The notes below the pieces were generated by a model, which saw nothing but the letters and a program-made list of their open reading frames with translations, was not told the DNA's origin and did no database searches. A stretch of 64,000 nt of DNA from Oceanicola sp. 502str15 (GTDB lineage: Bacteria > Pseudomonadota > Alphaproteobacteria > Rhodobacterales > Rhodobacteraceae). Where the stretch lies: positions 186,001-250,000 of the forward strand of contig NZ_WYDQ01000001.1 of the NCBI RefSeq assembly GCF_024105635.1. The letters run 5' to 3'. This document shows positions 8,397 through 27,248 of the stretch, one piece after another. How positions within the stretch are numbered: the stretch's first letter is position 1; each line of letters starts with the position of its first letter. Both the position numbers and the translations under genes were made by a program.

Positions 8397-8424
8397 GGGA
8401 TTTCCCTTGTTCGGGCCGCGCGGC

Positions 8425-9456
8425 TCAGCGGGCCGCGAGCTGGATCTCTTTCACCACGATGTCGCCGTCGATCACGATGGGCTCGTCATCGAGGAAGAGC
8501 GAGCAGTTGCGCATCGGGATATCGAGGTGGCAGGGGGTGTCGTTGGGGCCGCCGAGCTCGTTGTTGGGGCCGGTGGAGAACATGACGTTGCCGTAGAAGC
8601 TGCGCGGCTCCATGCCCATGCCGCCGGGGAACTCGCCCGGGGTCATGCCGTGCCACTTGGCGTGGGGGTTCATGCCCCAGCCGACGTGGCTCATGCCCTT
8701 GCCGCGCTCGTCGTTGAAGGCGTCCATGTAGGATTTGACCAGCTCGCAATCGAGGTCGCCGCGCATGTCGGTGATCCAGCCCTTCTCGATGGTGTAGGTG
8801 ATGGGCGAGCTGACATACATGTTCTGGGGCAGCAGGATATCGCCCGGCGCCACCACGATCTGCCCGTCGACGCCATCGTCGTCGCCGCCGGTGAAGACGA
8901 AGCCGGAGGGCCAGTGGTCCCAGCGGCCGGGCTCGTCGGTGCAGGCGTATTCGGTGACGGCGGGGTAGGTGTTGAGCTTGTAGGTGACATCGGTGCCGTG
9001 GGGCGAGGTGATGCGCATGACCTTGGCCTTGCCGAGCATCTCGCCGGCGATCTCGACCTTCTCGCGCAGTTCGGGGTAGGGCATCATCCGGGCCAGCAGC
9101 TCGGGCGGCTCGACGGCGGTGAGGATGCGGGTGCCGGCATCCTGGATGGCGAACTGCTCGGGGGAGAACAGCAGGAAGACGCAGTCGATCAGCATGTCGC
9201 AGTTCTTCAGCGCCTCGACCGCATCGGGCAGGGCTGCGAGGCCGGTGACGCCCACGTTCCAGCCGCCGGTGGGCAGGGGGGCGGGCAGGCGCATGTGATA
9301 CATCTTGGCGCCGAGGCGCTGGCCTGCGGCCATGAAGGCATCGGCGTAGTCGAGCCGGTCGCTGCCCTGTGTGAGCACGACGAGCTTTTCGCCCTCGTGC
9401 ACGCCCGACATCTTCAGCTGGTGCAGGCAGATCTCGGTGAAGCTGGCTTGATCCAT
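8425..9456 (-). CDS. nicX: 2,5-dihydroxypyridine 5,6-dioxygenase
   Basis: 343 residues, the usual length of NicX. Mononuclear Fe(II) ring-cleaving enzyme opening 2,5-dihydroxypyridine to N-formylmaleamate. The C-terminal H-x-D iron motif is present (His310, Asp312 in PCHLDIPM), inside the conserved run ELGGPNDTPCHLDIP. This family is distinct from VOC and cupin dioxygenases and is a reliable marker of pyridine degradation. 28 bp upstream of nicF, 31 bp downstream of the deformylase gene. Confidence 0.9.
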   Translation of the reverse strand: MDQASFTEICLHQLKMSGVHEGEKLVVLTQGSDRLDYADAFMAAGQRLGAKMYHMRLPAPLPTGGWNVGVTGLAALPDAVEALKNCDMLIDCVFLLFSPEQFAIQDAGTRILTAVEPPELLARMMPYPELREKVEIAGEMLGKAKVMRITSPHGTDVTYKLNTYPAVTEYACTDEPGRWDHWPSGFVFTGGDDDGVDGQIVVAPGDILLPQNMYVSSPITYTIEKGWITDMRGDLDCELVKSYMDAFNDERGKGMSHVGWGMNPHAKWHGMTPGEFPGGMGMEPRSFYGNVMFSTGPNNELGGPNDTPCHLDIPMRNCSLFLDDEPIVIDGDIVVKEIQLAAR

Positions 9457-9487
9457 TGGGGTCTCCGGGGTTGGGTGGCGTTTGGTG

Positions 9488-10270
9488 TCAGGCGGGGAAG
9501 TCCATGACCGCGCCGAGGAAGCCTTCGAGGTCGTCCCAGGGGATCATGTGGCCCGCCCCGGCAACGGTGCGCTGCTCGATGGCGGGGTTGAGGCGCGCGA
9601 TTTCGGCCTGATCGTCGGCGTCGACCACGGTTGCGCCGCCCGCGATCACCAGCCGGGCGGGTTTGGTGATGGCGGGGAGATCGGCGTGGATGTCATCGGT
9701 GTGGAAGCCGTCGAAGGCGATGCGGATGGCGCCCCAGTGGCAGGTGTGCAGCCATTCGGCGCGGAGCGCGAGTTGCTCGTCGGTCCAGGTCGGGCAGAAG
9801 GCGCGCATGTCCTCGGCCGAGCAGCCCTTCGCGGCCATCACGATGCTGTCGCCATACCACGGCCATTTGGAGGGGTAGGCGCGGCGGTTCGGGCCGGAGG
9901 TGGGCGGGTCGACGAGGATGTAGCCCGAGAAGGCATCGGCGTTGCGGGCGTTGGCGCGGATCGCGGTGCGGGCGCCCATGGAGTGGCCGAGCACGATGGG
10001 GCTGTTCATGGTTTGGGCGATGGCGATGGCGTCATCGGCCATGGCATCGAGGGTGTAGTCGAGGTCGCCGGATTGCGAGAGGCCGCGCCCGCGCACGTCG
10101 AGCACGTGCACATCAAAGCGCTCGGCCAGCCGTTCGGCCACGAAGCCCCAGGTGATGGCGGGGGAGGTGATGCCGGGGATCAGCAGCATCTCGGGCGCGC
10201 CTTCGGGACCGGCGTAGCGGATCAGGTGCTGGCGGATGCCGTTGGCGTGGAGGTTGTAGCCTTGGGTCAT
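9488..10270 (-). CDS. nicD: N-formylmaleamate deformylase (alpha/beta hydrolase)
   Basis: 260 residues. Alpha/beta hydrolase with nucleophile Ser97 in GHSMGA and catalytic His241 in AGAGHMIPW. Oxyanion region LLIPGITSPAITWGF. Predicted to release formate from N-formylmaleamate giving maleamate (NicD/PicE). Function is inferred from its position between dihydroxypyridine dioxygenase and maleate isomerase genes. Confidence 0.85.
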   Translation of the reverse strand: MTQGYNLHANGIRQHLIRYAGPEGAPEMLLIPGITSPAITWGFVAERLAERFDVHVLDVRGRGLSQSGDLDYTLDAMADDAIAIAQTMNSPIVLGHSMGARTAIRANARNADAFSGYILVDPPTSGPNRRAYPSKWPWYGDSIVMAAKGCSAEDMRAFCPTWTDEQLALRAEWLHTCHWGAIRIAFDGFHTDDIHADLPAITKPARLVIAGGATVVDADDQAEIARLNPAIEQRTVAGAGHMIPWDDLEGFLGAVMDFPA

Positions 10271-10280
10271 GGCGGGCCTT

Positions 10281-11030
10281 TCAGTAGGCGCCCGAGAGCA
10301 GCGTGCCGCCGCCCGGAACGCGGGTGTCGAGGTCGAGCGCCTTCAGCATCTGCCAGGTGGTGGCGATGGCGGCGGTGAGCACGGGCTTGCCGACGCGGGC
10401 CTCGACGGTGGAGACGGCGGGGAGCGAGGGCATCTGAACGCAGGCGGAGAGCACCACGGCGTCGACCTCGGAGGTGTCCATCTCGGCGACGATGCCGGGC
10501 AGGTTCATCGGGTCGTGGGCGGCGACGGCGAGGTTGTCGGCGATCTCGAGCGCCCGCCATGTGACGACCTCGATGCCCTCGTTGCGGATGTAGTCGACCA
10601 CCATCTCGGTGAGGGGTTTCATGTAGGGGGCGACGACGGCGACCCGTTTGGCACCGATGGCCTTGATCCCCTCGACCAGCGCGCCGGCGGAGGTGACGAC
10701 GGGGGCGGGGGCGTCGTTGCCTTGCGTTACCGCGTGGAGGCGTTCCTGCGAGGTGCGGTGGTAGCCGTGGCCCATGGACATGATGGCGACGAGGCAGGCG
10801 TAGCCCATCACGTCGACCTTGGCGTCGGAGAGTTCGAGGGCGCAGCGGTCGCTGTCGGCATCCATGGCCGCCAGCTCCTCCTTGGTGACCTTCTTCATGC
10901 GCATCCGCGAGGAGTGGAAGGTGAAGCGCTCGGGCGCCACCGTCTCGCGCGCCCGCAGGAGGGCGGGGATCTCGGTTTCCATCGTGACGTTGGACGACGG
11001 CACGATCTGGCCGATGCGGATGGGCTTCAT
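10281..11030 (-). CDS. nicE: Maleate cis-trans isomerase (Asp/Glu racemase superfamily)
   Basis: 249 residues. Two catalytic cysteines of the family are present: Cys79 (GYACLVAIM) and Cys197 (LSACVQMPS). N-terminal IGQIVPSSNVTMETE is typical of maleate isomerases. Converts maleate to fumarate, feeding the TCA cycle. First gene of the minus-strand operon; SD GAGGAG lies 8 nt before the ATG and overlaps a copy of the shared GCATACT motif. Confidence 0.9.
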   Translation of the reverse strand: MKPIRIGQIVPSSNVTMETEIPALLRARETVAPERFTFHSSRMRMKKVTKEELAAMDADSDRCALELSDAKVDVMGYACLVAIMSMGHGYHRTSQERLHAVTQGNDAPAPVVTSAGALVEGIKAIGAKRVAVVAPYMKPLTEMVVDYIRNEGIEVVTWRALEIADNLAVAAHDPMNLPGIVAEMDTSEVDAVVLSACVQMPSLPAVSTVEARVGKPVLTAAIATTWQMLKALDLDTRVPGGGTLLSGAY

Positions 11031-11293
11031 GAAGTATGCTCCTCAATTGGTCGCGCCTAGGATGAAAGCGGTGGGGCGGGGTTGCAAGCAAAATATGATG
11101 TATACTCCCTTTATCCCGTCTGTCCGCTCGGGATCGGGTGAAATGGCTGACGGAATGGGCGTTACTGCCGGTTTTTGCCTGATTATTGTGCAAATGAGGC
11201 GGGTTTGAAGGGTGGGGATGGAAAATTCTTCAAATATGGGGTATGCTGCATAAATTGAGCGAAACGCCACCCACCGAACAGGGACCTGTGATC
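11031..11293. promoter_or_regulatory. Divergent control region with three shared GTATRCT motifs
   Basis: Non-coding 263 bp between nicE (minus) and the TRAP operon (plus). Contains GTATGCT at 11034-11040 (at the nicE SD), GTATACTCCCTTTAT from 11100, and GTATGCTGCATAAATT from 11241; the last holds a perfect TATGC-T-GCATA palindrome. The same element recurs before the decarboxylase, the Mo-hydroxylase/marR pair and the Liv operon, suggesting a common operator. Confidence 0.55.
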
Positions 11294-12304
11294 ATGACAG
11301 CACCACTCCGCCTTGCCCTCGCCTCGGCAGCCCTTGCCGTAGCCGCCTCTGCCAGTGCCGCCCAGGAGGTGACATTGCGCCTCGGACATGTGGAGGCCCC
11401 GGCCTCGACCACCCATGTGATGCTGGAAAAGGTGGCTGAAATGGTCTCGGAAAAGACCGATGGCGCGGTGGCGCTGCAGATCTTCCCGCAAAGCCAGTTG
11501 GGGAGCCAGCGCGAAATGACCGAGGCGGTGCAGTTCGGGGCGCTTGACGCAACGGCGGGGCCGGTTGCCTTCATGGGCGGGTTCAACCCGGTGGCCTCGA
11601 TCATGGACATTCCGTTCCTCTATCCGGCGGACCCGGAGAAGGCGCAGGCGATCCGCGAGAGCGGTTTCAGCGATGCCTTCTGCGAGAGCTTCAACAGCCG
11701 GGGCGTGACCTGTGTGTCGCATTATCCCAATGGCACCAAGCAGTTCACCTCCAGCAAGCCGATCGAGACGGTGGCCGAGTTCGAGGGGCAGAGCTTTCGG
11801 GTGATGGAATCGGCGGTGCTGGTCGAATCGATGGGGGCGATCGGGGTGAAGGGCGTGCCGATTCCCTTCGGCGAACTTTACACCGCGTTGCAGACCGGCG
11901 TGGTGGATGGCGAGGAGAACCCGCTGGATACGATCTTCAACATGAAATTCTTCGAGGTGCAGGACTATCTTGCGCTGTCCAACCACGGGGCCATCGAGAA
12001 CGTGGTGCTGTTCAGCCCGATGGTGTGGACCGGCCTCGACGAGAGCCACCGCGAGGCGATCAGCTCCTCCCTGCAGGAGATCATTCCCGAAATGATGGCG
12101 CATAAGGCGGCAGCGGGCGAAACCTCGCTGGAGGCGATCCGCGCGGCGGAGGTGACGGTGATCGAGCCTTCGGCAGAGGAAATCGCGGCGCTGCGCGAAA
12201 AGATGTTCCCCGCTGCCCGCGATGCCTTTCTGGCGCGCTCGGGCGAGGAGGGGGCCAAGCTCTTCGAGGCCTATCAGGCCGCCTATGACGCCGTGATGAA
12301 CTGA
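11294..12304 (+). CDS. dctP: TRAP transporter substrate-binding protein (DctP family)
   Basis: 336 residues from MTAPLRLAL; earlier in-frame starts are possible but the Sec signal peptide (ending ASASAAQ) is best placed from this ATG. DctP-type periplasmic binder: LRLGHVEAPAST, FPQSQLGSQREMTEAVQFGALD, GVVDGEENPLDTI and SNHGA are family landmarks. Delivers an organic acid to the DctQM permease. Given its place in the pyridine-carboxylate island, an aromatic or N-heterocyclic acid is a reasonable guess. First gene of dctPQM. Confidence 0.9.
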   Translation: MTAPLRLALASAALAVAASASAAQEVTLRLGHVEAPASTTHVMLEKVAEMVSEKTDGAVALQIFPQSQLGSQREMTEAVQFGALDATAGPVAFMGGFNPVASIMDIPFLYPADPEKAQAIRESGFSDAFCESFNSRGVTCVSHYPNGTKQFTSSKPIETVAEFEGQSFRVMESAVLVESMGAIGVKGVPIPFGELYTALQTGVVDGEENPLDTIFNMKFFEVQDYLALSNHGAIENVVLFSPMVWTGLDESHREAISSSLQEIIPEMMAHKAAAGETSLEAIRAAEVTVIEPSAEEIAALREKMFPAARDAFLARSGEEGAKLFEAYQAAYDAVMN

Positions 12305-12335
12305 GCGGCAGGACAGGCCACCGAGAGGCAGCATT

Positions 12336-12839
12336 ATGTCAAAAGCCCTGGACCTGCTTCGCCTTCTGGAGCGGACAACCCTTGTTGCACTGCTTCTCGG
12401 CATGACCGCCCTGTTTGCCTTCAACGTGCTGGTCCGCGAGCTTGGCGGCTCGCTGGCCGCCTCGTTTCACTGGATCGACGAGGTGGTGCGGGTGATGAAC
12501 ATCTTCCTCGTGTTCCTCGCCGCCGGGTTGGCGCTGGAGCGGGGCAAGCAGGTGGCGGTCGATAGCTGGCGCGACCGGATTGCCGCGCGGTCCGGCCTGC
12601 CGCTGCGCCGGATCATCGACGGGGTGGGGGCGCTGTTTGCGCTCTACATGGCCTGGCTGGCGGGGAATACGGCTGCTTTCGTCTTTGCCAGCGGGCAGCA
12701 GAGCGCGACCTTGCCAATGCCGATCGGCTGGATCTACGTGGCGCCCTGTGCCGGGTTCATCCTGCTGGCGCTGCGTTACGGGGCGAGCCTGTTCGGGGTG
12801 ATCGACCGCTATGCGCCGAGTGGGGAGCTGCCCGAATGA
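12336..12839 (+). CDS. dctQ: TRAP transporter small permease (DctQ family)
   Basis: 167 residues with four transmembrane segments; HWIDEVVRVMNIFLVFLAAGLALERGKQVAVD is the conserved DctQ core. Membrane subunit joining the binding protein and DctM in a sodium-driven importer. SD GAGAGG precedes the ATG; the stop overlaps the dctM start (ATGA). Confidence 0.9.
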   Translation: MSKALDLLRLLERTTLVALLLGMTALFAFNVLVRELGGSLAASFHWIDEVVRVMNIFLVFLAAGLALERGKQVAVDSWRDRIAARSGLPLRRIIDGVGALFALYMAWLAGNTAAFVFASGQQSATLPMPIGWIYVAPCAGFILLALRYGASLFGVIDRYAPSGELPE

Positions 12840-14119
12840 TCCCCGGCGTCGCCATTGCCCTGCTGGCGGTGATCCTGCTGATTGCGGGTTTCGAGATGCT
12901 GATGGTGCTGGCGATCCCGACGCTGGCGCTGAAGGCGGGGTTCTTTCCGGGGATGCCGGACCTGATCATCGCGCAGAAGGTGACGGGCGGGATCAACCAG
13001 TCTTTGCTGCTGGCGATTCCGTTCTTTCTGTTCGCTGCCGAGCTGATGGGGCGGGGGCAGATTGCCGGGCGGCTCACCGGGCTGGTGCGCGCGCTGGTGG
13101 GCCATGCGCGGGGCGGGATCGGCTATACCACCATCGGCGGGGCGATGGGCTTCGGCTCGGTTTCGGGCTCGGCGCCGGCCACGGTGGCGGCGATGGGGCA
13201 TATCCTCTACCCCGAGCTGCGCCGCGCGAAGTTCAGGGACAAGTTCTCGCTCGGGCTGATCGTGTCGTCGGCCGAGACGGCGCTGCTGATTCCGCCCTCG
13301 ATCACCCTCATCGTCTACGGCTGGATCACCGGCACCTCGATCACCGCGCTCTTTGCCGCCGGGCTTTCGGTGGGTGTGGTGATGGGGCTGGCCTTTGCCG
13401 TGCTCACCGCCATCGAGGCCCGCCGCACCGGGGTGCAGGGCGATCCGCGCGCCACGCTGGGCGAGATAGGGCAGGCGCTGGCCGGGGCGGGCTGGGCGCT
13501 GGGGATGCCGGCGCTGATCCTCGGCGGCATCTATGGCGGGATCTTCACCCCGACCGAGGCCGCCGTGGTGAGCGTGGTTTACGCTATCGTGGTGGAGATG
13601 TTCGTTTACCGCAGCCTCGATCTGCGCGGGATGATCGAGGTGGCCGAGAAGGCGGCGATCCAGAACGCGGTGATCTTTCTGCTGCTGGCGCTGGGCACGC
13701 TGCTCTCCTATTTCATCACGCTGCTCCAGATTCCCAACATGCTGGTGGCGCTGGTGACGGATGCCAATGCCGGGCCGATCCTGTTTCTGATGGTGGCCAA
13801 CGTGGCCTTCATCATTGCCGGGATGTTCGTGGACCCCAATTCGATTCAGCTCATCCTTGTGCCGGCGCTGTTTCCGGTGGCGCAGAGCCTGGGGATCGAC
13901 CCGGTGCATTTTGGCATGATCGTCGCCGTCAACGTGACCCTCGGCATGGTCACGCCGCCCTTCGGGCTGGACCTGTTCGTGGCCTCCTCGACCCTGCAGA
14001 AGCCGGTGGCCGAGATCATTGCGGGCATATGGCCCTTCATCATCGTCAACCTGCTGGTGCTGCTGCTGATCACCTACGTGCCCGGCATCGCAACCCTCGT
14101 GCCCGACCTGATCCTGTAG
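12836..14119 (+). CDS. dctM: TRAP transporter large permease (DctM family)
   Basis: 427 residues, about 12 transmembrane helices, the normal DctM size. Family motifs: IPFFLFAAELMGRG, GGAMGFGSVSGSAPATVAAMG, PPSITLIVYG, GIFTPTEAAVVSVVYA, and VTPPFGLDLFV near the end. Ion-coupled transport channel of the TRAP system. Stops 95 bp before the decarboxylase gene, with a separate candidate operator in the gap. Confidence 0.93.
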   Translation: MIPGVAIALLAVILLIAGFEMLMVLAIPTLALKAGFFPGMPDLIIAQKVTGGINQSLLLAIPFFLFAAELMGRGQIAGRLTGLVRALVGHARGGIGYTTIGGAMGFGSVSGSAPATVAAMGHILYPELRRAKFRDKFSLGLIVSSAETALLIPPSITLIVYGWITGTSITALFAAGLSVGVVMGLAFAVLTAIEARRTGVQGDPRATLGEIGQALAGAGWALGMPALILGGIYGGIFTPTEAAVVSVVYAIVVEMFVYRSLDLRGMIEVAEKAAIQNAVIFLLLALGTLLSYFITLLQIPNMLVALVTDANAGPILFLMVANVAFIIAGMFVDPNSIQLILVPALFPVAQSLGIDPVHFGMIVAVNVTLGMVTPPFGLDLFVASSTLQKPVAEIIAGIWPFIIVNLLVLLLITYVPGIATLVPDLIL

Positions 14120-14160: not shown

Positions 14161-14176
14161 GTATACTGCATATTAT
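14161..14176 (+). promoter_or_regulatory. Shared motif GTATACTGCATATTAT upstream of the decarboxylase
   Basis: Lies 38-53 bp before the ATG at 14214, in the position of a promoter/operator. Matches the G(T/C)AT(A/G)CT(G/C)C-T-A/T-rich pattern seen upstream of the TRAP operon (11241) and the Liv operon (23704). Confidence 0.5.
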
Positions 14177-14213
14177 GACACGCCCACCCGACGACAGAGA
14201 ACAGGAAGGCCAG

Positions 14214-15188
14214 ATGACCCCCAAGATCACCTTTGAAGAGCACTTCATGGCGCCGGGCTTCGAGAAGCATTCGGCCGCCTTTCTCAAGCTGATCCCCAAG
14301 GTGCAGGCCGAGCGGCTGATGCAGCGGCTGGGCGATTTTGACGGCGAGCGGATCGAGCTGATGGACAGGGGCGGGATCGTGCGCACGGTGCTGTCGCTCA
14401 CCGGGCCGGGGGCGCAGGGCGAGCCTGCCGAGACGGCGGTGGAGGCGGCGCGACAGGCGAACGACTTTCTTGCCGCCAAGGTGGCGATGCGGCCCGAGCG
14501 GCTTTCGGGGCTTGCCAGCCTGCCGATGCACGACCCGGAGGCGGCGGTGGCCGAGTTGCAGCGGGCGGTGAAGGAGCTTGGCTTTCTGGGCTGTCTGGTG
14601 AACGGCCACACCCATGGCACCTATTACGACGCGCCGGAATACGATTTGTTCTGGGCCGAGCTGGAGCGGCTGGGCGTGCCCTTCTACCTGCATCCGACCA
14701 ATGCCTATGCCACCCCCTATGTGCTCGAGGGCATGCCGGTGCTGCATGGCGCCACATGGGGCTGGGGCGTAGAGACGGGCAGCCATGCGCTGCGGCTGCT
14801 CTTTGCCGGGGTGTTCGACCGCTTTCCGGGCGTGAAGATCGTGCTCGGCCACATGGGCGAGGCGCTGCCCTTCCTGCGCTGGCGCTACGATTCGCGCTTT
14901 GGCGCCTATCCGATGGGCGTGGAGCTGGCGCTGCCGCCGTCGCAGTATTTCACCCGCAACATCGTCATCACCACCTCGGGCGTCTGCTCGCACCCCTCGC
15001 TGATGGGGGCGCTGGGCGAGATGGGGGCGGAGGGTGTGATGTTTTCGGTCGACTACCCCTATGAGGACACGGAGGCGGCGGTGGAGTTCATCGAGACCGC
15101 GCCGCTGGACGAGGCGACGCGCCGGCTTGTCTGCCACGACACCGCCGCCGCGCTGATGGGGCTGCCGCTGATCGGGGCCGGGTCATGA
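14214..15188 (+). CDS. picC: Amidohydrolase-2 (ACMSD-like) decarboxylase, probable 3,6-dihydroxypicolinate decarboxylase
   Basis: 324 residues from MTPKITFEEH, with AGGAAGG upstream; an in-frame ATG at 14175 would overlap the operator. TIM-barrel of the ACMSD/gamma-resorcylate decarboxylase family with metal-site residues Glu8, His10, His160 (FYLHP), His213 (LGHMGE) and Asp280 (FSVDYPYED). This family non-oxidatively decarboxylates hydroxylated aromatic acids; PicC, the picolinate-pathway enzyme making 2,5-dihydroxypyridine, belongs to it. The stop overlaps the fused oxygenase gene (ATGA). Substrate is inferred from the pathway context. Confidence 0.82.
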   Translation: MTPKITFEEHFMAPGFEKHSAAFLKLIPKVQAERLMQRLGDFDGERIELMDRGGIVRTVLSLTGPGAQGEPAETAVEAARQANDFLAAKVAMRPERLSGLASLPMHDPEAAVAELQRAVKELGFLGCLVNGHTHGTYYDAPEYDLFWAELERLGVPFYLHPTNAYATPYVLEGMPVLHGATWGWGVETGSHALRLLFAGVFDRFPGVKIVLGHMGEALPFLRWRYDSRFGAYPMGVELALPPSQYFTRNIVITTSGVCSHPSLMGALGEMGAEGVMFSVDYPYEDTEAAVEFIETAPLDEATRRLVCHDTAAALMGLPLIGAGS

Positions 15189-18001
15189 GCTTTCAGTTCA
15201 CCAATATCCCGGCGGGGCAGGTTCATGCCGAGGGCTCGATGGCGGTGGAGGTCGACGGGCTGCGGCTGGCGCTGTTTTCGCTGGATGGCGAAATTTATGC
15301 GACCGGCAACATCTGCACCCATGCCTTTGCCCTGCTGACCGACGGGCATGTGGAGAACGGCTGCGTGGAGTGCCCGCTGCACCAGGGGCTGTTCGACATC
15401 CGCTCGGGCAAGGCGCAGGGCACGCCGGTGACCAAGGACATCGCCACCTATGCGGTGAAGATCGACGAGGGGATCATCTGGGTCGATACCGAGCCGAAGG
15501 AGGTGGAGGGCGCGGCTGGCGCGGGCGCGGCGAAGGGGCCGGCGAAGGATTTTCGCCGCCTCGTGATCGTGGGCGCCGGGCAGGCCGGGGCCGAGGCGGC
15601 GCGCGGGGCGCGGGCCGAGGGGTTTGCCGGGGCGATCACCCTGTTGGGCGACGAGCCGCACCCGCCCTACGAGCGCCCGCCGCTGTCGAAGGATCTGCTG
15701 CTGGGCAAGTCGACGCTGGCGGAGGCGCATGTGTTCGAGCCGGGCGAGGCGGAGGCGCTGGAGCTGGACATGCGGCTCGACACGCCGGTGGCCGGGATCG
15801 ACCGCGCGGCGCGCAACGTGGTGCTGGAGAGCGGCGAGACGCTGCCCTACGACATGCTGGTGATCGCCACCGGCGCGGCGGCCCGCGAGATTGCGCTGCC
15901 GGGCGCGGAGGCGGTGACGCTGCACTACCTGCGCGACCTTGCCCATGCCGAGGCACTGGGACGCGCGCTGAAGACCGCCAGATCCGTTGCCGTGATCGGT
16001 GGCGGCTTCATCGGGCTGGAACTGGCCTCCGCCGCCCGCGCGCTGGGCCTGAAGGCCACGGTGATCGAGGCGCAGGACAGGCTGCTGAAACGCCTGCTGC
16101 CCGCCGAGGCGGCCGAGTTCCTTGGCTGGGTGGCGGAGCAGAACGAAGTGGACCTGCGCCTTGGTGCGGGCGTGGGCGCGGTTGGCCCCGAGGGGGTGAC
16201 GCTGGCCGATGGCAGCATGGTCGAGGCCGATTGCATCGTGGTCGGCGTCGGGGCGGTGCCACGCGACGCGCTGGCCCGCGCGGCCGGGCTGGCGGTTTCG
16301 GACCGCGGCGGCGTGCTGGTGGATGCGCAGAACCGCACCTCCGATGCGGCGATCTACGCGGTCGGCGATGTGGCGGTGATCCGCGACGAGCTGTCGAGCG
16401 CCGAGAGCCGGGTGGAAAGCTGGCAGCACGCCAACCTCTCCGCCGCGCGCACCGCCCGCGCCATTGCCGGGACGCCGCAGGCGCGGCCCGAGATGCCGTG
16501 GTTCTGGTCGGATCTTTTTGGCGGCACGCTTCAGATCTACGGCGCCATCGGCCCGGAGCTGACCTGCATCCGCCGCGATGGCGAGGCGCCGGTGTTCCTG
16601 TGTCTTGACGGCGAGAGCCGCGTGGTGGCGGCCATCGACTTTGGCGACGCCGAAACCCTGCGCGCCGCGCGCGCCCTGATTGAAGGCGGCCAGCCGGTTG
16701 ATCCCGATGTTCTGGCCGACCCCGCAACCAACCTTTCCGAGCTGGAGGATGACGAGATGAAGATGCTGCCGATCGAGAAGCGGTTTGCCTGGCCTGCCGA
16801 GGGCCTCGGCCGGGTGCCCGACTGGGCCTATACCAACAAGGAAATCTACGACCGCGAGATCGAGCGCATTTTCCACGGCAAGACTTGGAATTACGTGGGG
16901 CTCGAGGCCGAGGTGCCCAATTCGGGGGACTTCGTACGCTCCTACGTCGGGCCGACGCCGGTGGTGATGGTGCGCGACGAGGAGGGCGGGATCAACGTGT
17001 TCGAGAACCGCTGCTCGCACCGGGCGGCGGAGTTCTGCCGCGAGCTGCGGGGCAATACCGAGGAGTTCGTTTGCCCCTATCACCAGTGGAGCTACGACCT
17101 GAAGGGCAACCTTGCGGGCGTGCCGTTCCGGCGGGGCGTGAACGGGCAGGGGGGCATGGGCCCCGACTTCCGCCCCGAGAACCACGGGGTGAAGAAGCTC
17201 TACACCACCCAGCGCAACGGCGCGGTCTTTGCCTCGTTCAGCCCCGATGTGGAGAGCTTCGAGGAATACCTGGGCGAGGAGATGCTGACCGATTTCGACA
17301 CCGTCTTTTCGGGCCGCAAGCTGAAGGTGTTGGGCCACTACCGCCACACCCTGATGGGCAACTGGAAGCTCTACCCCGAGAACCTGAAGGACCCTTACCA
17401 CGCCACCCTGCTGCACACCTTCCTCGTGACCTTCGGGTTGCTGGTGGCCGGCAACAAGTCGGCCATGATCGTCGATCCGCGCGGGCGGCATTCGACCATG
17501 GCCTCGGCCAAGAGCGACAATGCGGTGTCGGAGGAGAACAAGGCCGAGATGCGGGCCTATCGTGACGGGCTGACGCTGGAAGACCCGCGGCTGATGGATT
17601 TCATCCCCGAGTTCGACAGCCCCTGGTCGGTGACGATGCAGGTGGTCTGGCCGGGGCTGATCGTGCAGCGCGAGATGAACACGCTGGGCGTGCGCCAGAT
17701 CGTGCCCAACGGCCCCAACGAGTTCACGATGGTCTGGACGATGTTCGGCTACGAGGACGACGACGAGGAAATGGAGCGCCACCGGCTGCGGCAGGGCAAC
17801 CTGATGGGGCCTGCGGGCTTTCTCGGGCTGGAGGACAACGAGGCGATCAAGTTCGTGCAGGACGGGATGCTGAACTCGACCGGCGGCGAGCACCTCGTGG
17901 TGCTCGACCCGGATGTGCCTGCCGGCACCTCGGAAACCCTGATTTCCGAAGCGGCGATCCGGGCGATGTACAAGCACTGGAGACAGGAGATGGGCCTGTG
18001 A
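15185..18001 (+). CDS. picB: Fused Rieske ferredoxin - FAD ferredoxin reductase - Rieske oxygenase alpha subunit
   Basis: One uninterrupted 938-residue frame with three normally separate electron-transfer parts. Residues 1-105: Rieske ferredoxin, Cys44/His46 and Cys63/His66. An Ala/Gly-rich linker (about 106-122) follows. Residues about 123-515: NAD(P)H ferredoxin reductase with FAD site VIVGAGQAG, NAD site VIGGGFIGLE (about 268) and AIYAVGDVAV. From about 525 (an internal ATG at 16757 marks the ancestral start): oxygenase with second Rieske Cys610/His612, Cys630/His633, and iron site Asp736-x2-His739-x4-His744 plus acidic Glu883/Asp884. Predicted to hydroxylate the 6-hydroxypyridine-carboxylate made by the Mo-enzyme. 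The beta subunit gene follows with overlap. Confidence 0.88.
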   Translation: MSFQFTNIPAGQVHAEGSMAVEVDGLRLALFSLDGEIYATGNICTHAFALLTDGHVENGCVECPLHQGLFDIRSGKAQGTPVTKDIATYAVKIDEGIIWVDTEPKEVEGAAGAGAAKGPAKDFRRLVIVGAGQAGAEAARGARAEGFAGAITLLGDEPHPPYERPPLSKDLLLGKSTLAEAHVFEPGEAEALELDMRLDTPVAGIDRAARNVVLESGETLPYDMLVIATGAAAREIALPGAEAVTLHYLRDLAHAEALGRALKTARSVAVIGGGFIGLELASAARALGLKATVIEAQDRLLKRLLPAEAAEFLGWVAEQNEVDLRLGAGVGAVGPEGVTLADGSMVEADCIVVGVGAVPRDALARAAGLAVSDRGGVLVDAQNRTSDAAIYAVGDVAVIRDELSSAESRVESWQHANLSAARTARAIAGTPQARPEMPWFWSDLFGGTLQIYGAIGPELTCIRRDGEAPVFLCLDGESRVVAAIDFGDAETLRAARALIEGGQPVDPDVLADPATNLSELEDDEMKMLPIEKRFAWPAEGLGRVPDWAYTNKEIYDREIERIFHGKTWNYVGLEAEVPNSGDFVRSYVGPTPVVMVRDEEGGINVFENRCSHRAAEFCRELRGNTEEFVCPYHQWSYDLKGNLAGVPFRRGVNGQGGMGPDFRPENHGVKKLYTTQRNGAVFASFSPDVESFEEYLGEEMLTDFDTVFSGRKLKVLGHYRHTLMGNWKLYPENLKDPYHATLLHTFLVTFGLLVAGNKSAMIVDPRGRHSTMASAKSDNAVSEENKAEMRAYRDGLTLEDPRLMDFIPEFDSPWSVTMQVVWPGLIVQREMNTLGVRQIVPNGPNEFTMVWTMFGYEDDDEEMERHRLRQGNLMGPAGFLGLEDNEAIKFVQDGMLNSTGGEHLVVLDPDVPAGTSETLISEAAIRAMYKHWRQEMGL

Positions 18002-18516
18002 ACATGGCAGCCAAACCGACCCCCGAGGAGGCCGACCAGCGCCGCGTGGCGCGGCTCGATATCGAGGAGTTCAACGCAGAGTACTGCGCCGTGCTCGACG
18101 ATGGCGATCTCGAGGACTGGCCCGAGTTCTTTACCGAGGACGCCTTTTACAACATCACCAGCCGCGAGAACTTCGACCATGGCCGCCCGGTGGGGCTTGT
18201 CTATTGCGAGAGCAAGGCGATGCTGAAGGACCGGGCGCTGGCGATCTCGAAGACTTCGATGTTCGGGCCGCGCTATCTGCGCCACTACATGACCAACACC
18301 CGCGTCACGGGCATCGAGGCGGATGGCACGATCTGCGCCGAGGTGAACTACATCCTGATCGAAACGCTGGCCGAGCTGCCCGAGGGGCGGTTGCACCAGG
18401 CCGGGCGGATGATTGACCGGTTCCGGCGGCAGGAGGACGGGAGCCTGCTGCTTTCGTCGCGGATTGCCGTCTACGACACGCTGCTGGTGCCCAATGCGCT
18501 GGTGCTGCCGGTGTAG
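17998..18516 (+). CDS. Ring-hydroxylating oxygenase beta subunit
   Basis: 172 residues. SnoaL/NTF2-like small subunit of Rieske oxygenases: N-terminal helix with EFNAEYCAVLDDGDLEDWPEFFTEDAFY, then GRPVGLVYCESKAMLKDRALAI and RYLRHYMTNTRV. GTG at 17998 overlaps the preceding stop and is 9 nt from GGAG; ATG at 18004 is the alternative. No metal centre; forms the alpha3beta3 core with the C-terminal part of the fused protein. Last gene of the plus-strand oxygenase unit, ending at a strong terminator. Confidence 0.88.
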   Translation: MNMAAKPTPEEADQRRVARLDIEEFNAEYCAVLDDGDLEDWPEFFTEDAFYNITSRENFDHGRPVGLVYCESKAMLKDRALAISKTSMFGPRYLRHYMTNTRVTGIEADGTICAEVNYILIETLAELPEGRLHQAGRMIDRFRRQEDGSLLLSSRIAVYDTLLVPNALVLPV

Positions 18517-18587: not shown

Positions 18588-19757
18588 TCAGCGCTTGCGG
18601 AACCAGCCCTTCACCACGGCCTTCATCACGGCCCAGGCGCTGACGCCCTTGCTTTCGCGGGCCTCGCCGCCCGAGAGCACGGCGTCGCAGTTGGCGACGA
18701 ATTCGCCGAGAATGTAATCGACGAGGCCGTTCACCAGCTCGGGACGGTTGAACTGGCCGAGCATCCCCTCGATGCGGAAGCGGAAGGCGACGTCGACTGT
18801 CGAGGTGTCGGCGGCGGCTTCGGCCACCTTGAAGCTCAGCGCGCCTTCGACGTTGCTCTGCCCGCCCCGGTCCTTGCCGCGCCCGGTGACGCGGCCTTCG
18901 CGGGCCGGGTCGTCGGCGGTGAAATCGCCCTGGCCCTCGAAGCGGGCCGAGATCGGGCCGAAGCGCACGCCGACGTGGCCGGTGAAGGACTTTCCATCGG
19001 TTTCGGCCAGCTCGGCGCCGGGAAGGCAGCGGGCGACGGCGGGGAGGTCGGAGAAGAGGGCCCAGACATCGGCCGTGGGGTGGGCGAGGGCGACCTGGCG
19101 GCGTACCACGGTCCAGCCGTCCTCGACGGTGGCGGAGCCGGTGGGGGCCTCGGCCACGGCAGCGGCCTCGGCGCGCGGCTCGAAGGGGGTGAAGCCGCGG
19201 GCGGGCGGCGTGGCATCGGGCGGTTGGGGCAGGGGCGGGATGCCGGCGGCGTCGCGCTCTTCGATCACCTGAGCGATGGAGGCGACGATGCCGACGTAGC
19301 CGGTGCAGCGGCAGAGGTTGCCGGAGAGTTCGTTGCGGATGCGGGTCTCGTCGGGCGCGGGCAGGCGCTCGACCAGATCGCGGGCGGTGGCGAGCATTCC
19401 GGGGGTGCAGAAGCCGCATTGCAGGGCGTGGTTGCGGGTGAAGGCGGCGCGGAGCCTGTCCATCAGCGCATCGCCCTGCCAGCCTTCGAGGGTCTGCACC
19501 TCGGCGCCGTCGCAATCGGCGGCGAAGGTGATGCAGGAGCGGGTGGGCCTGCCGTTGACCATGACGGTGCAGGCCCCGCAGACGCCCTGTTCGCAGGCGA
19601 GGTGGGTGGCGGTGAGGTCGAGCTTGTCGCGCAGGATCTCGGCAAGCTGGGTGCGGGGCGTGGCCAGCACGTCGGCGGCTTCGCCGTTGACGGTGAGGCG
19701 CAGGGCGAGGGGGGCCTCGGGGGCGGCGACATCTGTGGGGGAAAGCGGCTTGTTCAT
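18588..19757 (-). CDS. Mo-hydroxylase [2Fe-2S] subunit fused to a CoxG/SRPBCC domain
   Basis: 389 residues, more than twice a normal CoxS-type subunit. Residues 18-170: plant-type ferredoxin domain (Cys55, Cys60, Cys63, Cys75) and the four-helix [2Fe-2S] domain (Cys114, Cys117 in QCGFCTPGM; Cys149, Cys151 in NLCRCTGY). A Pro/Ala-rich linker (about 175-212) leads to a CoxG-type SRPBCC domain (about 214-370; LPAVARCLPGAEL, GKSFTGHVGVRFGPI) and a basic tail (VVKGWFRKR) that may touch the membrane. CoxG in CO-dehydrogenase clusters is a separate membrane-anchoring protein. Third gene of the L-M-S operon. Confidence 0.88.
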   Translation of the reverse strand: MNKPLSPTDVAAPEAPLALRLTVNGEAADVLATPRTQLAEILRDKLDLTATHLACEQGVCGACTVMVNGRPTRSCITFAADCDGAEVQTLEGWQGDALMDRLRAAFTRNHALQCGFCTPGMLATARDLVERLPAPDETRIRNELSGNLCRCTGYVGIVASIAQVIEERDAAGIPPLPQPPDATPPARGFTPFEPRAEAAAVAEAPTGSATVEDGWTVVRRQVALAHPTADVWALFSDLPAVARCLPGAELAETDGKSFTGHVGVRFGPISARFEGQGDFTADDPAREGRVTGRGKDRGGQSNVEGALSFKVAEAAADTSTVDVAFRFRIEGMLGQFNRPELVNGLVDYILGEFVANCDAVLSGGEARESKGVSAWAVMKAVVKGWFRKR

Positions 19758-20575
19758 TGGGCGATGACCTTGTCGATGGCGCGGGCGAGGGAGGTGGTGA
19801 GCTGGTGCAGCTTGACCCGGTCGGCGCCGGGCAGCGCGGCGGCGAGCGCCTCGGTGATGCGGGCGGGCGCGGGGGCGGTGGCGCTGCGGGCCAGATCGGC
19901 GGCCAGCTCGGGCAGGAGCAGCGGCGCGGCGCCGGTGGCTCCGGCGACAATGCGGGCGTAGCCGCTGGCGGGCTCGATCACCACCGCGCCGATGGCGTCG
20001 GCAAACTCGCCGACCTTGCGGCAGATCTTGTGGTAGCCCCAGAGCGGCGCGCGCAGGGGCGCGGCGATCTCGACGGCGGTGATGAACTCGCCGGGCGCGA
20101 GGGCGGTGCGGTAGGCGCCCTGCATGAAGCCGCGCATCGGCGTTGCGCGCGCGCCGCTCGCGCCTTGCAGGCGCAGGGTGGCGTCAAGTGCGGTCATGGT
20201 GGTGACCCAATCGGCTGCCGGGTCGGCATGGGCCAGCGAGCCGCCGAGGGTGCCGCGATTGCGCACGGCGCGATAGGCGATGCCGCGGGCGACGTGGCGC
20301 ATCATCGCGGGCAGCTCGACCGGGCTGTCGCCATCCTCGATGCGGGCGTGGATGACGCCTGCGCCGATCACCAGCGCGCCGCCCTCTTCGGAAATCTCCG
20401 CTTGCCCGGGAAGGGCCGCCAGGCCGACGAGCTTGGCCGGGCGGGCGAGGCGCAGGTTGAGCATCGGCCCGAGGGACTGGCCGCCGGCGATGATCTTGGC
20501 ACTCTCGCCTGAGAGCCCGGCGCTGACGGCGGCCGCGGTGTCGGGGCGGATGTGGGAGAAGGGGGCCGGTTTCAT
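19754..20575 (-). CDS. Mo-hydroxylase FAD-binding medium subunit
   Basis: 273 residues, CoxM/CutM type. FAD motifs AGGQSLGPML near residue 32 and the run RNRGTLGGSLAHADPAAD that binds the pyrophosphate and flavin. Passes electrons from the Fe-S subunit to the external acceptor. Overlaps both neighbours by 4 bp (ATGA), so the three subunits are coupled. Confidence 0.92.
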   Translation of the reverse strand: MKPAPFSHIRPDTAAAVSAGLSGESAKIIAGGQSLGPMLNLRLARPAKLVGLAALPGQAEISEEGGALVIGAGVIHARIEDGDSPVELPAMMRHVARGIAYRAVRNRGTLGGSLAHADPAADWVTTMTALDATLRLQGASGARATPMRGFMQGAYRTALAPGEFITAVEIAAPLRAPLWGYHKICRKVGEFADAIGAVVIEPASGYARIVAGATGAAPLLLPELAADLARSATAPAPARITEALAAALPGADRVKLHQLTTSLARAIDKVIAQ

Positions 20576-22929
20576 GCGCTTGCCTCCTTGGCGGTGCGGG
20601 CGTCGAGGATGGCCGAGAGCACCCGGTGCGGGGTGGCCGGAATTTGCGTGAGTTCCACGCCGAGCGGGGAGAGCGCATCGTTGATGGCGTTCACGATGGC
20701 CCCGGCGGGCGCGATGGCCGCGCCTTCGCCCACGCCCTTGATCCCGTGGCGGGTGTGGGGCGAGAGGGTTTCGGCATGGCCGAGGCGGAAGTGCGGCAGC
20801 TCCGCCGGGCCGGGCAGGATGTAGTCGGCGAGGGTGGAGGTGAGGGGCTGGGCGGAGGCATCGTAGAGCGCCTCCTCGAAGAGCGCGGTGCCGATGCCCT
20901 GCGCCGCGCCGCCGTAGCTCTGGCCGTCGAGGATGAGCGGGTTCACCCGGCGGCCGCAGTCCTCGAAGATCACGTAATCGAGGATCTCGGTGCGCCCGGT
21001 GGCCGGGTCGACCTCGACCAGTGCGGCATGGGTGGCATAGGTGAAGACGCCGGTGTCGATGTCGGGCTTGTAGCCTTCTGTCACCTCCAGCCCGGCGGTG
21101 TTCACGTCATCGGGCAGGCGGTCGGGATGGAGATACCAGGCCGAGGCGATCTCGGCGAAGGAGGCGGAGGCGAGGCCGTTGGTGACGGCGCCTTCGCGGA
21201 TCTCGACCTCTTCGGGGGCGCATTGCAGCAGGTGGGCGCCGTGGACCCTGACCCGGCGGGCCAGTTCCTCGGCGGCCTTGGAGACCGCCCCGCCGGCCAT
21301 GACCATGCCGCGTGAGGCATAGGCGCCGGTGGAATAGGGGGTGAGGCCGGTGTCGCCCATGGTGACCTTGACCTGATCGAGCGAGGTGGTGAGCCACTCG
21401 CAGGCAACCTGCGCGATCGTGGTTTCAAGCCCCTGCCCGAAAGAGTGGTTGCCCGAGCGCACCTCGAGCGTGCCCGAGGGGGTGAGCTTGACGCTGGCCT
21501 GCTCGTAGCCCGGCACCAGCGGCAGGCCCCATGAGGCGAAGACCTTGGTGCCATGGGCCGATTGCTCGGTGAAGCTGGCAAAGCCGAGGCCGAGATAGCG
21601 GCCTTCGGCGCTGGCGGCCTTCTGGCGGGCGCGCACGGCGGGCACGTCGATCAGCCGGGCGGCCTCGCGGGCGGCGGCGGGGTAGTCGCCGCTGTCGTAA
21701 TACTTGCCGGTGATGTTGGTGTAGGGCATCGCGCCGCCCTGCACGAGATTGAGGCAGCGCACCTCGAGCGGGTCACGGCCCACGGCGCGGGCGATGGCAT
21801 CCATCGTCAGCTCCATGGCGAAGCAGACGCCGGGCCGGGCGACACCGCGATAGGGGGTGAAGCCGGGTTTGTTGGTGGCGACCGAATAGGTGCGGCAGGA
21901 GTAGGCACCAATGTCATAGGGCCCCGGCAGGTTGCCGCCCGCCTGCGCCGCTTCGAGGCATGCGGTGAAGGGCCAGACTGAGTAGGCGCCGATATCGACC
22001 CAGATATCGGCATCGAGGCCCAGAAGACGGCCCTCGTCATCGGCGTAGGCGGTGATCTTGTAGCTGTGCTGGCGGGTGTTGGCCCCGGCGGTGAGATGCT
22101 CGCGGCGATCCTCCGTCCAGCGGATCGGGCGGTCGACCTTTCGGGCGACCCATGCGACCGAAAGCTCCTCGGGCTGGAGGACGCATTTGTAGCCGAATCC
22201 GCCGCCGACATCGGGGGCGATCACCCGCACCTCGGATTGGTCGAGGGCGAGGCATTCGGACAGGCCGGTGCGGATCAGGTGGGGGACCTGGGTGGAGGTG
22301 TAGACCACGAGCTGGTCGGCCTTGTGGTCCCAATGGGCCAGCACGCCCTTGCCCTCCATTGGGTTCATCGCCTGGCGCGCGGTTTCATACTCGCGTTCGA
22401 TCACCACGCTGGCCTTGGCCCGGGCCTCGGCAAGGTCGCCGTCGTGGCGGGTGGTGAGAAAGAGATTGTCGCCCCAGTCCTCGTGCAGCAGGGCGGCGCC
22501 TTCGGCCAGGGCGGTCTGCACGTTGGGGATGGGGGGCAGGGGATCGAGATCGACCAGCACCGCCTCGGCCAGATCCTCGGCCTCGGCGCGGGTGGGGGCG
22601 ATGCAGATGGCGATGCATTCGCCCACGTAGCGCACCTTGCCCTGCGCCAGCGCCGGGTAGTCGGAGACCTTGTAGCTGGGCAGGGTGGATTCGCAGCGGA
22701 TGGGCTTGAGGTCAGCCATGTCGGCGGCGGTGAAGACCCGCCCCTCGGCGCCTTCGGGCTTGGTGATGGAGGTGATCCGCGCATGGGCCAGCGGGCTGCG
22801 CACGAAGGCGGCCTCCCAGCCCCCTGCGAGCTTGATATCGCCCACGAATTGCGCCCGCCCCTTGAGGTGCCTTGCGTCTTCCTTGCGCGGTGCCCGCGCC
22901 CCGATTCCCGCTCCGGTCCCTGATTGCAT
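20572..22929 (-). CDS. picA: Molybdopterin-binding large subunit, probable picolinate (pyridine-carboxylate) hydroxylase
   Basis: 785 residues from ATG 22929 (SD GGAG); a GTG at 22959 gives ten more residues. Xanthine-oxidase family, CoxL-like: PDVGGGFGYK, PYRGVARPG and catalytic Glu in KGVGEGAAIAP. The CO-dehydrogenase loop AYRCSFR is absent, so this is not CO oxidation. Such enzymes hydroxylate N-heterocycles next to the ring nitrogen with water as oxygen source. With the downstream-pathway genes in the same island, conversion of picolinate to 6-hydroxypicolinate is the best fit. First gene of a minus-strand L-M-S operon, divergent from marR. Confidence 0.85.
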   Translation of the reverse strand: MQSGTGAGIGARAPRKEDARHLKGRAQFVGDIKLAGGWEAAFVRSPLAHARITSITKPEGAEGRVFTAADMADLKPIRCESTLPSYKVSDYPALAQGKVRYVGECIAICIAPTRAEAEDLAEAVLVDLDPLPPIPNVQTALAEGAALLHEDWGDNLFLTTRHDGDLAEARAKASVVIEREYETARQAMNPMEGKGVLAHWDHKADQLVVYTSTQVPHLIRTGLSECLALDQSEVRVIAPDVGGGFGYKCVLQPEELSVAWVARKVDRPIRWTEDRREHLTAGANTRQHSYKITAYADDEGRLLGLDADIWVDIGAYSVWPFTACLEAAQAGGNLPGPYDIGAYSCRTYSVATNKPGFTPYRGVARPGVCFAMELTMDAIARAVGRDPLEVRCLNLVQGGAMPYTNITGKYYDSGDYPAAAREAARLIDVPAVRARQKAASAEGRYLGLGFASFTEQSAHGTKVFASWGLPLVPGYEQASVKLTPSGTLEVRSGNHSFGQGLETTIAQVACEWLTTSLDQVKVTMGDTGLTPYSTGAYASRGMVMAGGAVSKAAEELARRVRVHGAHLLQCAPEEVEIREGAVTNGLASASFAEIASAWYLHPDRLPDDVNTAGLEVTEGYKPDIDTGVFTYATHAALVEVDPATGRTEILDYVIFEDCGRRVNPLILDGQSYGGAAQGIGTALFEEALYDASAQPLTSTLADYILPGPAELPHFRLGHAETLSPHTRHGIKGVGEGAAIAPAGAIVNAINDALSPLGVELTQIPATPHRVLSAILDARTAKEASA

Positions 22930-22989
22930 GTTGCGCGCTCCGTTTGGCTGGCTTTGCACCCGTGCCGCCTTGTGCCGGGGGGTGGGTGC

Positions 22990-23101: not shown

Positions 23102-23617
23102 ATGACAGTTAATTCGGCAGAGACAGGCGAGCCCGGTGGTGAGCAGGATAGCCCGTTCGGGCAGAAGAGGTATGACGATCTCTGGGGGCGCCCGGGATAC
23201 CTGGTGCGGCGTCTGCACCAGATTCACATTGGTTTGTTTGCCGAGGCCTGCGCCGGACTGGATCTGACGGCGGTGCAATATGCCATGCTTTCCGTGCTGT
23301 ACGGGGGCGACGAGTTTGACCAGCTGTCGCTGTCGAAGGCGGTGGGAATCGACCGGACCAGCGGGGCGGACGTGATCAAGCGGCTGGTGCGCCGGGGTCT
23401 TGCCACGCGCACCCCCTCCGAAGCGGACCGCCGGGCGCGGGTGGTGAAGATCACCGAGGAGGGCCGCGAATTCGTGCGCCGGGTGCGCCCGATGATGGAG
23501 GAGGCGCAGGACAAGTTCATTGCCCCGATCTCGACCGAGGAGTGCGAGGTCTTCATGGGGATTCTGCGCAAGCTGATCGAGGCCAACAATAGTGCGTCGC
23601 GGGCGCCGATGAAGTGA
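23102..23617 (+). CDS. MarR-family transcriptional regulator of the pyridine-carboxylate island
   Basis: 171 residues; AGGAG precedes the ATG. Winged-helix core with LDLTAVQYAMLSVL, SLSKAVGIDRTSGADVIKRLVRRGLATR (recognition helix) and wing SEADRRARVVKITEEG. MarR proteins act as dimers that release DNA on binding an aromatic ligand; a MarR-type protein, PicR, controls picolinate genes in Alcaligenes. Here it lies between the Mo-hydroxylase operon and the Liv operon, both with the shared GTATACT motif upstream. Confidence 0.9.
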   Translation: MTVNSAETGEPGGEQDSPFGQKRYDDLWGRPGYLVRRLHQIHIGLFAEACAGLDLTAVQYAMLSVLYGGDEFDQLSLSKAVGIDRTSGADVIKRLVRRGLATRTPSEADRRARVVKITEEGREFVRRVRPMMEEAQDKFIAPISTEECEVFMGILRKLIEANNSASRAPMK

Positions 23618-23662: not shown

Positions 23663-23920
23663 TGACCGCCCCCCGAGAGGCGTGTTCGGCGCCGTAATAG
23701 GGGGCATACTGAATAATAATGCGATTATTTTTCAGGCAGTTGTGGAAATCTCGGGCGGTTGGGTGAAATTCACCCTTTGAGGATCAAAAATAACGAAGCA
23801 TACTCCGTAAAACGCGAACGGAGATATGATGACTTACCCACAGACGAACGTCTGGAGGCAGGGACAGAAGACCCCCTGTGTCCGGCGCGACTTGCAGGCC
23901 GAGCGGGCAGGGGCGCCGAC
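23663..23920 (+). promoter_or_regulatory. Control region of the Liv-type transporter operon
   Basis: About 260 bp without a gene. Two copies of the shared motif are present: GCATACTGAATAATAAT (23704) and GCATACTCCGTAAAA (23798). Between them is a perfect 15-bp palindrome, GGGTGAA-A-TTCACCC (23761-23775). An AT-rich stretch around 23710-23733 could hold the promoter. The frame is open to an ATG at 23759, but the conserved livH start is at 23921. Confidence 0.55.
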
Positions 23921-27168: not shown

Positions 27169-27248
27169 GCCGAGATGCAAACCCGTCCGTCCGGCAGGCC
27201 GGGCGGGCACCTTGAACAAAAGCCAAAACCAGCAAGGAGAGACCAGAG

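Follow-up and report, generated by a model that had tools for sequence, protein, structure and literature searches.

In the alphaproteobacterium Oceanicola sp. 502str15, a Rieske ferredoxin, a ferredoxin reductase and the α-subunit of a Rieske oxygenase are encoded in one reading frame. The gene is located at 15185–18001 on the forward strand of the window, the 64,000-nucleotide stretch analyzed here (contig NZ_WYDQ01000001.1, positions 186,001 to 250,000), and runs uninterrupted from ATG to TGA over 938 codons, encoding a protein of 101.6 kDa. It seems likely that this natural fusion is PicB of picolinate degradation, that it acts with the β-subunit encoded next to it, and that two proteins are made from the gene. 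The wider proposal, that it represents the first natural family of self-sufficient Rieske oxygenases, with two starts in one frame, mixed α3β3 trimers and a tunable, built-in dose of reductase, is evenly balanced.

The metal-site motifs of the fused gene (picB1-B2-B3, for ferredoxin, reductase and oxygenase α) are intact. The N-terminal Rieske ferredoxin domain (15185–15493, residues 1–103; Pfam Rieske_2 at 13–100) carries C44, H46, C63 and H66 and resembles AndAb and HcaC, with a score under the NCBIfam cut-offs. The FAD/NAD(H) ferredoxin reductase domain (15551–16744, approximately residues 123–520) matches Pyr_redox_2 at 125–417 and Reductase_C at 439–520, and its top reductase matches in the PDB are of the BphA4 type. 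The C-terminal part matches Rieske at 567–650 and Ring_hydroxyl_A at 715–936, both above cut-off, and has the Rieske (C-X-H and C-X2-H) and mononuclear iron (D/H/H) sites by which an oxygenase α-subunit is recognized. The residues of these sites, C610, H612, C630, H633, D736, H739 and H744, are, together with the four of the ferredoxin domain, identical in 39 of 39 rows of an alignment made up of the window gene, 35 fused relatives and three ferredoxin–oxygenase relatives. D884 is likewise invariant in all 39 rows, and is presumably one more ligand of the iron site. The ratio of non-synonymous to synonymous substitution between the window gene and two relatives is about 0.06–0.26 across the three domains, indicating purifying selection. 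A first-pass annotation of the window had described one 938-residue frame with two Rieske centers, a reductase and an iron site, and with no stop or frame change between them; open reading frame (ORF) analysis and the Pfam domains bear this out, and the residues it named are where it placed them. All redox domains sit on one chain, which is the structural mark of a self-sufficient oxygenase. The fusion's stop overlaps the GTG of the adjacent β-subunit gene (picB4, 17998–18516, forward strand; start at GTG 17998 or ATG 18004; Pfam Ring_hydroxyl_B), an arrangement that places the enzyme in the α3β3 class, the hexamer being predicted from the genes only.

The fusion is patchy yet widespread in Alphaproteobacteria, with one group in Alcanivorax-like Gammaproteobacteria. 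One scan of the genomes of 84,980 species matched at least 579 relatives, the best 80 of which were kept for counting. The same domain order in one continuous frame, for which the first-pass annotation had recommended a database search, is present in 35 of these 80; in 37 the three parts are separate adjacent genes in identical order, two (L061 and L062) have the oxygenase alone, and four are ferredoxin–oxygenase fusions without a reductase, to which L055, a gene of this kind truncated at the end of a contig, can be added. The remaining one, L028, is a Mangrovicoccus ximenensis locus (7968–9575) whose reductase is only partly in frame with the oxygenase, reflecting either a frame break or an assembly error. 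Full-length matches were found in 3 of 195 relatives' genomes, 5 of 394 genomes in the family and 6 of 385 in the class, the window's own genome included, and further searches gave 5 of 6 genomes for one genus, 17 of 242 for the genus to which L011 belongs, 8 of 198 for the family containing L020 and, for two orders, 2 of 82 and 3 of 194; these counts overlap and take in genomes already known. In Paracoccus seriniphilus, a complete circular plasmid carries a fusion 79% identical to that of the window. After copies at 97% identity or more were dropped (18 of 67 fused ORFs, and 7 of 12 in a later batch), 54 non-redundant fusions remained, with a maximum pairwise identity of 96.7%. L012, recorded as Mesoflavibacter (Bacteroidota), has a fused gene at least 97% identical to that of L100, which comes from a genome of the window's own class; L012 is perhaps a mislabeled metagenome-assembled genome.

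Within the fused frame, the linker between reductase and oxygenase contains a Shine–Dalgarno (SD) motif, GGAGG, at 16744–16748, 8 nucleotides 5′ of an internal ATG at 16757 that has little structure around it. Translation from this ATG is predicted to give the oxygenase α part as a separate product (16757–18001, forward strand) of 414 residues and 47.1 kDa. The idea of an internal start arose from the first 36 fused genes, and each linker was scored by its best ATG or GTG in the 26-codon stretch before the oxygenase, with an SD free energy (ΔG) of −6 kcal/mol as threshold. Among the discovery genes, 27 of the 32 that could be anchored reach this threshold, compared with 1056 of 5190 segments elsewhere in the same genes. 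The genes fetched after the idea had been formed behave in the same way: 15 of 15 anchored genes in a first batch (segments, 370 of 2456) and 5 of 5 in a second (100 of 819). L002 and L091 had no anchor at first and afterwards scored −6.0 and −13.8; L091 is the sixteenth gene of the first later batch and brings the later-fetched total to 21 of 21. Over all non-redundant fusions, the linker start is at −6 or below in 49 of 54 and at −8 in 36 of 54.

Low content of guanine and cytosine (GC) or an acidic linker was considered as the cause of the signal, and both GC-matched segments and synonymous shuffles speak against it. Only 778 of 4425 GC-matched segments (18%) reach −6, compared with 44 of 49 fusion linkers. 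Synonymous shuffling of the linkers gave a mean of −8.63 observed and −5.89 shuffled, with none of 400 shuffles as low; when each of 20 linker families was represented by a single gene, the result was again 0 of 400, and 1 of 400 if start codons were also held fixed. In 19 of the 20 families, the threshold is reached by one member or more. The linker of another fusion, CoxS–CoxG, taken as a control from the fetched loci, reaches −6 in 4 of 44 genes, a set that includes the window's own and was not thinned at 97%, and the ferredoxin–reductase linker, examined as a second internal start, does so in only 6 of 40 scored genes (5 of 27 and 1 of 13) and was rejected as such. The local fold at the internal start averages −8.0 kcal/mol (n = 49), compared with −15.1 for the remaining in-frame ATGs (n = 996). 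Among 343 other internal ATGs in 45 genes of the window, six have an SD matching that of 16757 and none combines such an SD with an equally open site. The internal SD scores −10.9, stronger than the −5.0 of the fusion's own start. It is encoded by varied residues in different lineages (EE, ED, KE, RR, GD and others), mostly but not solely in one codon phase. Of six reductase-less ferredoxin–oxygenase relatives, only L059 reaches the threshold (−7.2), the rest scoring −1.9 to −5.4. On the P. seriniphilus plasmid, whose gene table is incomplete and does not show the upstream annotation, the annotated α gene begins at the counterpart of ATG 16757, and the ATG following that one scores better (−7.2 versus −5.9). 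No internal promoter was found before 16757 by a simple sigma-70 scan, a weak kind of scan. The family thus shows an SD and start codon conserved beyond chance, as expected of an in-frame internal translation start, and the comparative evidence suggests that ATG 16757 has been kept as a start signal. The first-pass annotation had placed this ATG correctly and called it the former start of the oxygenase; the position stands, while "former" does not agree with a signal that appears to be maintained rather than a relic.

Quick trees with SH-like approximate likelihood ratio test (SH-aLRT) support only suggest, as the simplest reading, a single old fusion followed by losses. Across one branch of the reductase tree, 41 fused rows group together with a support of 94, just below the mark of 95, and 37 separate-gene rows fall on one side with 99. 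Repeated recent fusions, considered as a cause of the kept internal SD, are disfavored by this tree. In an unrooted oxygenase tree, from which a distant paralogue was omitted, 49 rows of the fused clade separate from 37 separate-gene rows with a support of 100; the 49 count the stand-alone oxygenases L061 and L062, which were added after an earlier tree had placed both there. In the rooted oxygenase tree the deep forks are unsettled and the fused label requires six changes. L055–L059 fall inside the fused clade of the rooted tree, and the two-Rieske fusions of L055–L059 and L130, which join ferredoxin and oxygenase without a reductase, perhaps arose by reductase loss. On a plasmid of Caballeronia sp. 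SBC2 (L119, 6001–8841), the ferredoxin, reductase and oxygenase genes share a frame with only single stops between them; this arrangement is possibly the pre-fusion state, and illustrates a way in which stop loss could start a fusion.

Homologues of every step from picolinate to fumarate adjoin the fusion in the window, as assigned by Pfam, PDB sequence and pairwise identity. Upstream, the stop of a picC-like gene for 3,6-dihydroxypicolinate decarboxylase of the amidohydrolase family (14175–15188, forward strand; 61% identical to the Bordetella sp. BOR01 homologue) overlaps the ATG of the fusion. It is preceded by a tripartite ATP-independent periplasmic (TRAP) transporter (11243–14119, forward strand; DctP 11243–12304, DctQ 12336–12839, DctM 12836–14119), whose role in acid uptake is a guess. 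On the reverse strand are a picG-like maleate isomerase of the Amdase family (10281–11030), the P. seriniphilus homologue of which is annotated as maleate isomerase, a picE-like N-formylmaleamate deformylase of the α/β hydrolase type (9488–10270), a picD-like 2,5-dihydroxypyridine 5,6-dioxygenase of the NicX family (8425–9456; PDB 7cn3, E 5e-93) and a picF-like maleamate amidohydrolase of the isochorismatase family (7767–8396). Downstream, a picA-like molybdenum hydroxylase (18588–22959, reverse strand) comprises an FeS-CoxG subunit (18588–19757), an FAD subunit (19754–20575) and a Mo subunit (20572–22959), and is followed by a MarR-family regulator (23102–23617, forward strand) that is picR-like by position. 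The joining of the iron–sulfur subunit to a CoxG-like domain at 18588–19757 recurs across the fetched loci, with 44 such ORFs including that of the window. Branched-chain-type ATP-binding cassette (ABC) transporter genes, permease and ATPase by Pfam, lie beside the cluster at 23759–28460, and such a set also comes after the pic cluster in P. seriniphilus.

The picolinate degradation gene set of Alcaligenes faecalis and Bordetella bronchiseptica, as described in part of one source, contains picB1B2B3B4, with PicB as the 6-hydroxypicolinate monooxygenase (PMC10142695). The neighbors in the window correspond to this described set, which makes a single-frame picB1-B2-B3 the most likely identity of the window gene; the product would be PicB, 6-hydroxypicolinate 3-hydroxylase, encoded alongside picA, picC and the genes of the 2,5-dihydroxypyridine pathway. 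This assignment goes beyond the first-pass annotation, which had named no pathway. A passage of a second source groups the picolinate enzyme with NagG in one oxygenase subfamily, the TPADO subfamily (PMC9060491). Two other identities were considered and dropped. An indole-acetate (iad) oxygenase had been suggested by the MarR and Rieske genes; the neighbors match pic genes instead, and among PDB matches the IadDE structure 9o71 is a remote one (E 3e-27, compared with 6e-131 for the best). Anthranilate dioxygenase was rejected on NCBIfam scores under the cut-offs.

In the proposed mechanism, the fusion would catalyze the PicB step, from 6-hydroxypicolinate to 3,6-dihydroxypicolinate. NADH would reduce the FAD domain, and the flexibly tethered N-terminal Rieske domain, whose linker is variable, would take electrons to the Rieske cluster of an α-subunit, from which they would pass to the mononuclear iron of a neighboring α, a step that one source describes as widely accepted for the family (PMC12445004). 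Intramolecular electron transfer, proposed in the first-pass annotation, would fit a reductase that is joined to the oxygenase without a stop. Two products are predicted: the full 101.6-kDa fusion from 15185 and a free oxygenase α of about 47 kDa from the internal ribosome-binding site and ATG (16744–16759). With no stop codon to end it separately, the reductase would be made only within the fusion, barring later cleavage of the chain. Fusion and bare α could share α3β3 trimers, giving trimers with one or two reductases rather than three. The earlier claim that the fusion forces one reductase per oxygenase in α3β3 is accordingly unsupported, since a free α from the internal start, sharing trimers with the fusion, would relax the ratio, which need not be one to one.

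Several observations weigh against this account. For the window gene by itself, 23% of synonymous shuffles give a signal at least equal to the observed one. Its kin L001, L003, L004 and L006 are moderate, at −5.9 and a rank of 0.25–0.40 among the segments of their own genes, and L012 has no signal in the tested stretch (−1.7), a GTG at −9.4 lying 33 codons upstream. The 54 fusion genes are related and hence are not independent counts. The reductase-less contrast is small, with six genes from few lineages, and one of these, L057, scores −8.5 under slightly wider scoring and −5.4 under the standard one. The openness of the site is partly due to the lower GC of the linker (0.588 versus 0.640). 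The 3′ end of the genome's 16S ribosomal RNA was not matched by an exact pattern nor recognized among five one-mismatch matches, and the anti-SD was therefore assumed to be the standard CCUCC. No report of a second product was met, although no search aimed at one was made; dual expression and activity are predictions from sequence alone. As to the substrate, which is assigned by homology and neighborhood, none of nine neighboring proteins tested reached an NCBIfam cut-off, and 14 of 36 genomes of fused relatives lack a picC homologue above 50%.

The alternative that only the 938-residue fusion is made, each α carrying its own ferredoxin and reductase and the internal signal being an unused relic, is unlikely but deserves serious attention. 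The frame is open all through, stop-loss fusion is plausible given the Caballeronia sp. SBC2 arrangement, and the window gene is unexceptional against its own shuffles. If the trees are right in favoring one old fusion, however, one would expect a relic to have decayed, but 49 of 54 fusions retain the signal, which lies above synonymous expectation, recurs in 19 of 20 linker families and is shared by only one of six reductase-less relatives. The opposite view, in which the free α does the work and the fused protein is a tethered or cleaved ferredoxin–reductase with an idle oxygenase attached, is decidedly improbable. The stronger SD of the internal start and the P. seriniphilus annotation from that start, incomplete as its gene table is, agree with it. 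One coding sequence would serve both products, so that conservation cannot tell them apart; nothing was found pointing to cleavage, and, among the loci of the rooted tree, the only departures from the fusion within the fused clade are the reductase-less forms, the two stand-alone oxygenases and the broken-frame L028.

That the same architecture acts on another substrate, such as a different hydroxylated pyridine or benzoic acid, is improbable, though somewhat less so than an idle oxygenase. The closest solved oxygenase is salicylate 5-hydroxylase, and the 14 picC-poor genomes agree with this possibility, several having an amidase, a GST-like gene or a small, weakly ABM-like gene (below the Pfam cut-off) near the fusion. 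Against it, each step between picolinate and fumarate has a homologue beside the fusion in the window. Across the 36 fused-locus genomes, L028 included, a picC homologue of at least 55% identity is present in 22 and one of 37–49% in five, and none at E ≤ 1e-40 was found in nine. Eleven fused loci (L009, L010, L011, L013, L015, L018, L029, L030, L043, L049 and L052) have a small, weakly ABM-like neighbor, as does a twelfth, the reductase-less L057; no picC homologue above 50% occurs in any of the eleven genomes, several have a nearby amidase or GST-like gene, and a different substrate or lower pathway is possible there. A sequencing or assembly error merging separate genes, or hiding a lost stop, a possibility that the first-pass annotation had raised, has next to no probability: independent assemblies have the same frame, in 35 of the best 80 relatives, in 8 of 198 genomes of one family and on the complete P. 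seriniphilus plasmid. The reading preferred here remains a PicB-type fusion that probably yields both the fusion and a free α.

An evolved fusion present in dozens of genomes provides a ready object for questions of self-sufficiency, coupling and electron path. It also offers a design pattern, in its domain order, its linker lengths and perhaps an internal start setting the dose of reductase. The incomplete gene table of the P. seriniphilus plasmid, which starts α at the internal ATG so that the fusion is not visible, may represent an annotation trap.

Self-sufficient P450s have oxygenase and reductase in one chain, as in the fusion, and differ from Rieske oxygenases in being heme enzymes with an unrelated fold. 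They are mentioned in a review of August 2025, a passage of which says that a natural self-sufficient Rieske oxygenase had yet to be identified (PMC12445004). Other passages of the review note that in engineered Rieske fusions both activity and coupling are still attenuated, and that the route of electrons from ferredoxin to the oxygenase lacks experimental validation in Rieske systems (PMC12445004). In the literature searched, a natural fusion is absent from titles and abstract openings, and the original pic paper may mention one. NdmD, the multidomain reductase of caffeine demethylases, also combines several redox domains of a Rieske system in one polypeptide, but according to part of the same review it serves the separate oxygenases NdmA and NdmB, unlike the fusion (PMC12445004).

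The α-subunits of NagG salicylate 5-hydroxylase (PDB 7c8z) and terephthalate dioxygenase (7q04), among the three closest solved oxygenase α-subunits, are stand-alone proteins of about 410–440 residues and are likened to the window protein by the α-subunit only. NCBIfam models for the anthranilate 1,2-dioxygenase AndAaAbAcAd match all four parts in the window, and are the best models for α, ferredoxin and β, although all four parts fail the equivalog cut-offs (411.9 against 750, 296.6 against 650, 104.7 against 150 and 122.2 against 230). The PicB system of A. faecalis JQ135 and B. bronchiseptica RB50, as far as the source describes it, has the same kind of gene set (PMC10142695). PicB-type loci of related strains have ferredoxin, reductase, α and β in the same order as the window, with oxygenases 65% (A. 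faecalis AU14) and 67% (Bordetella sp. BOR01) identical to that of the window. These loci keep the first three parts as separate genes, whereas in the window B1–B3 are one frame rather than three of four separate components, and the Oceanicola enzyme would therefore be a variant PicB and not a standard member.

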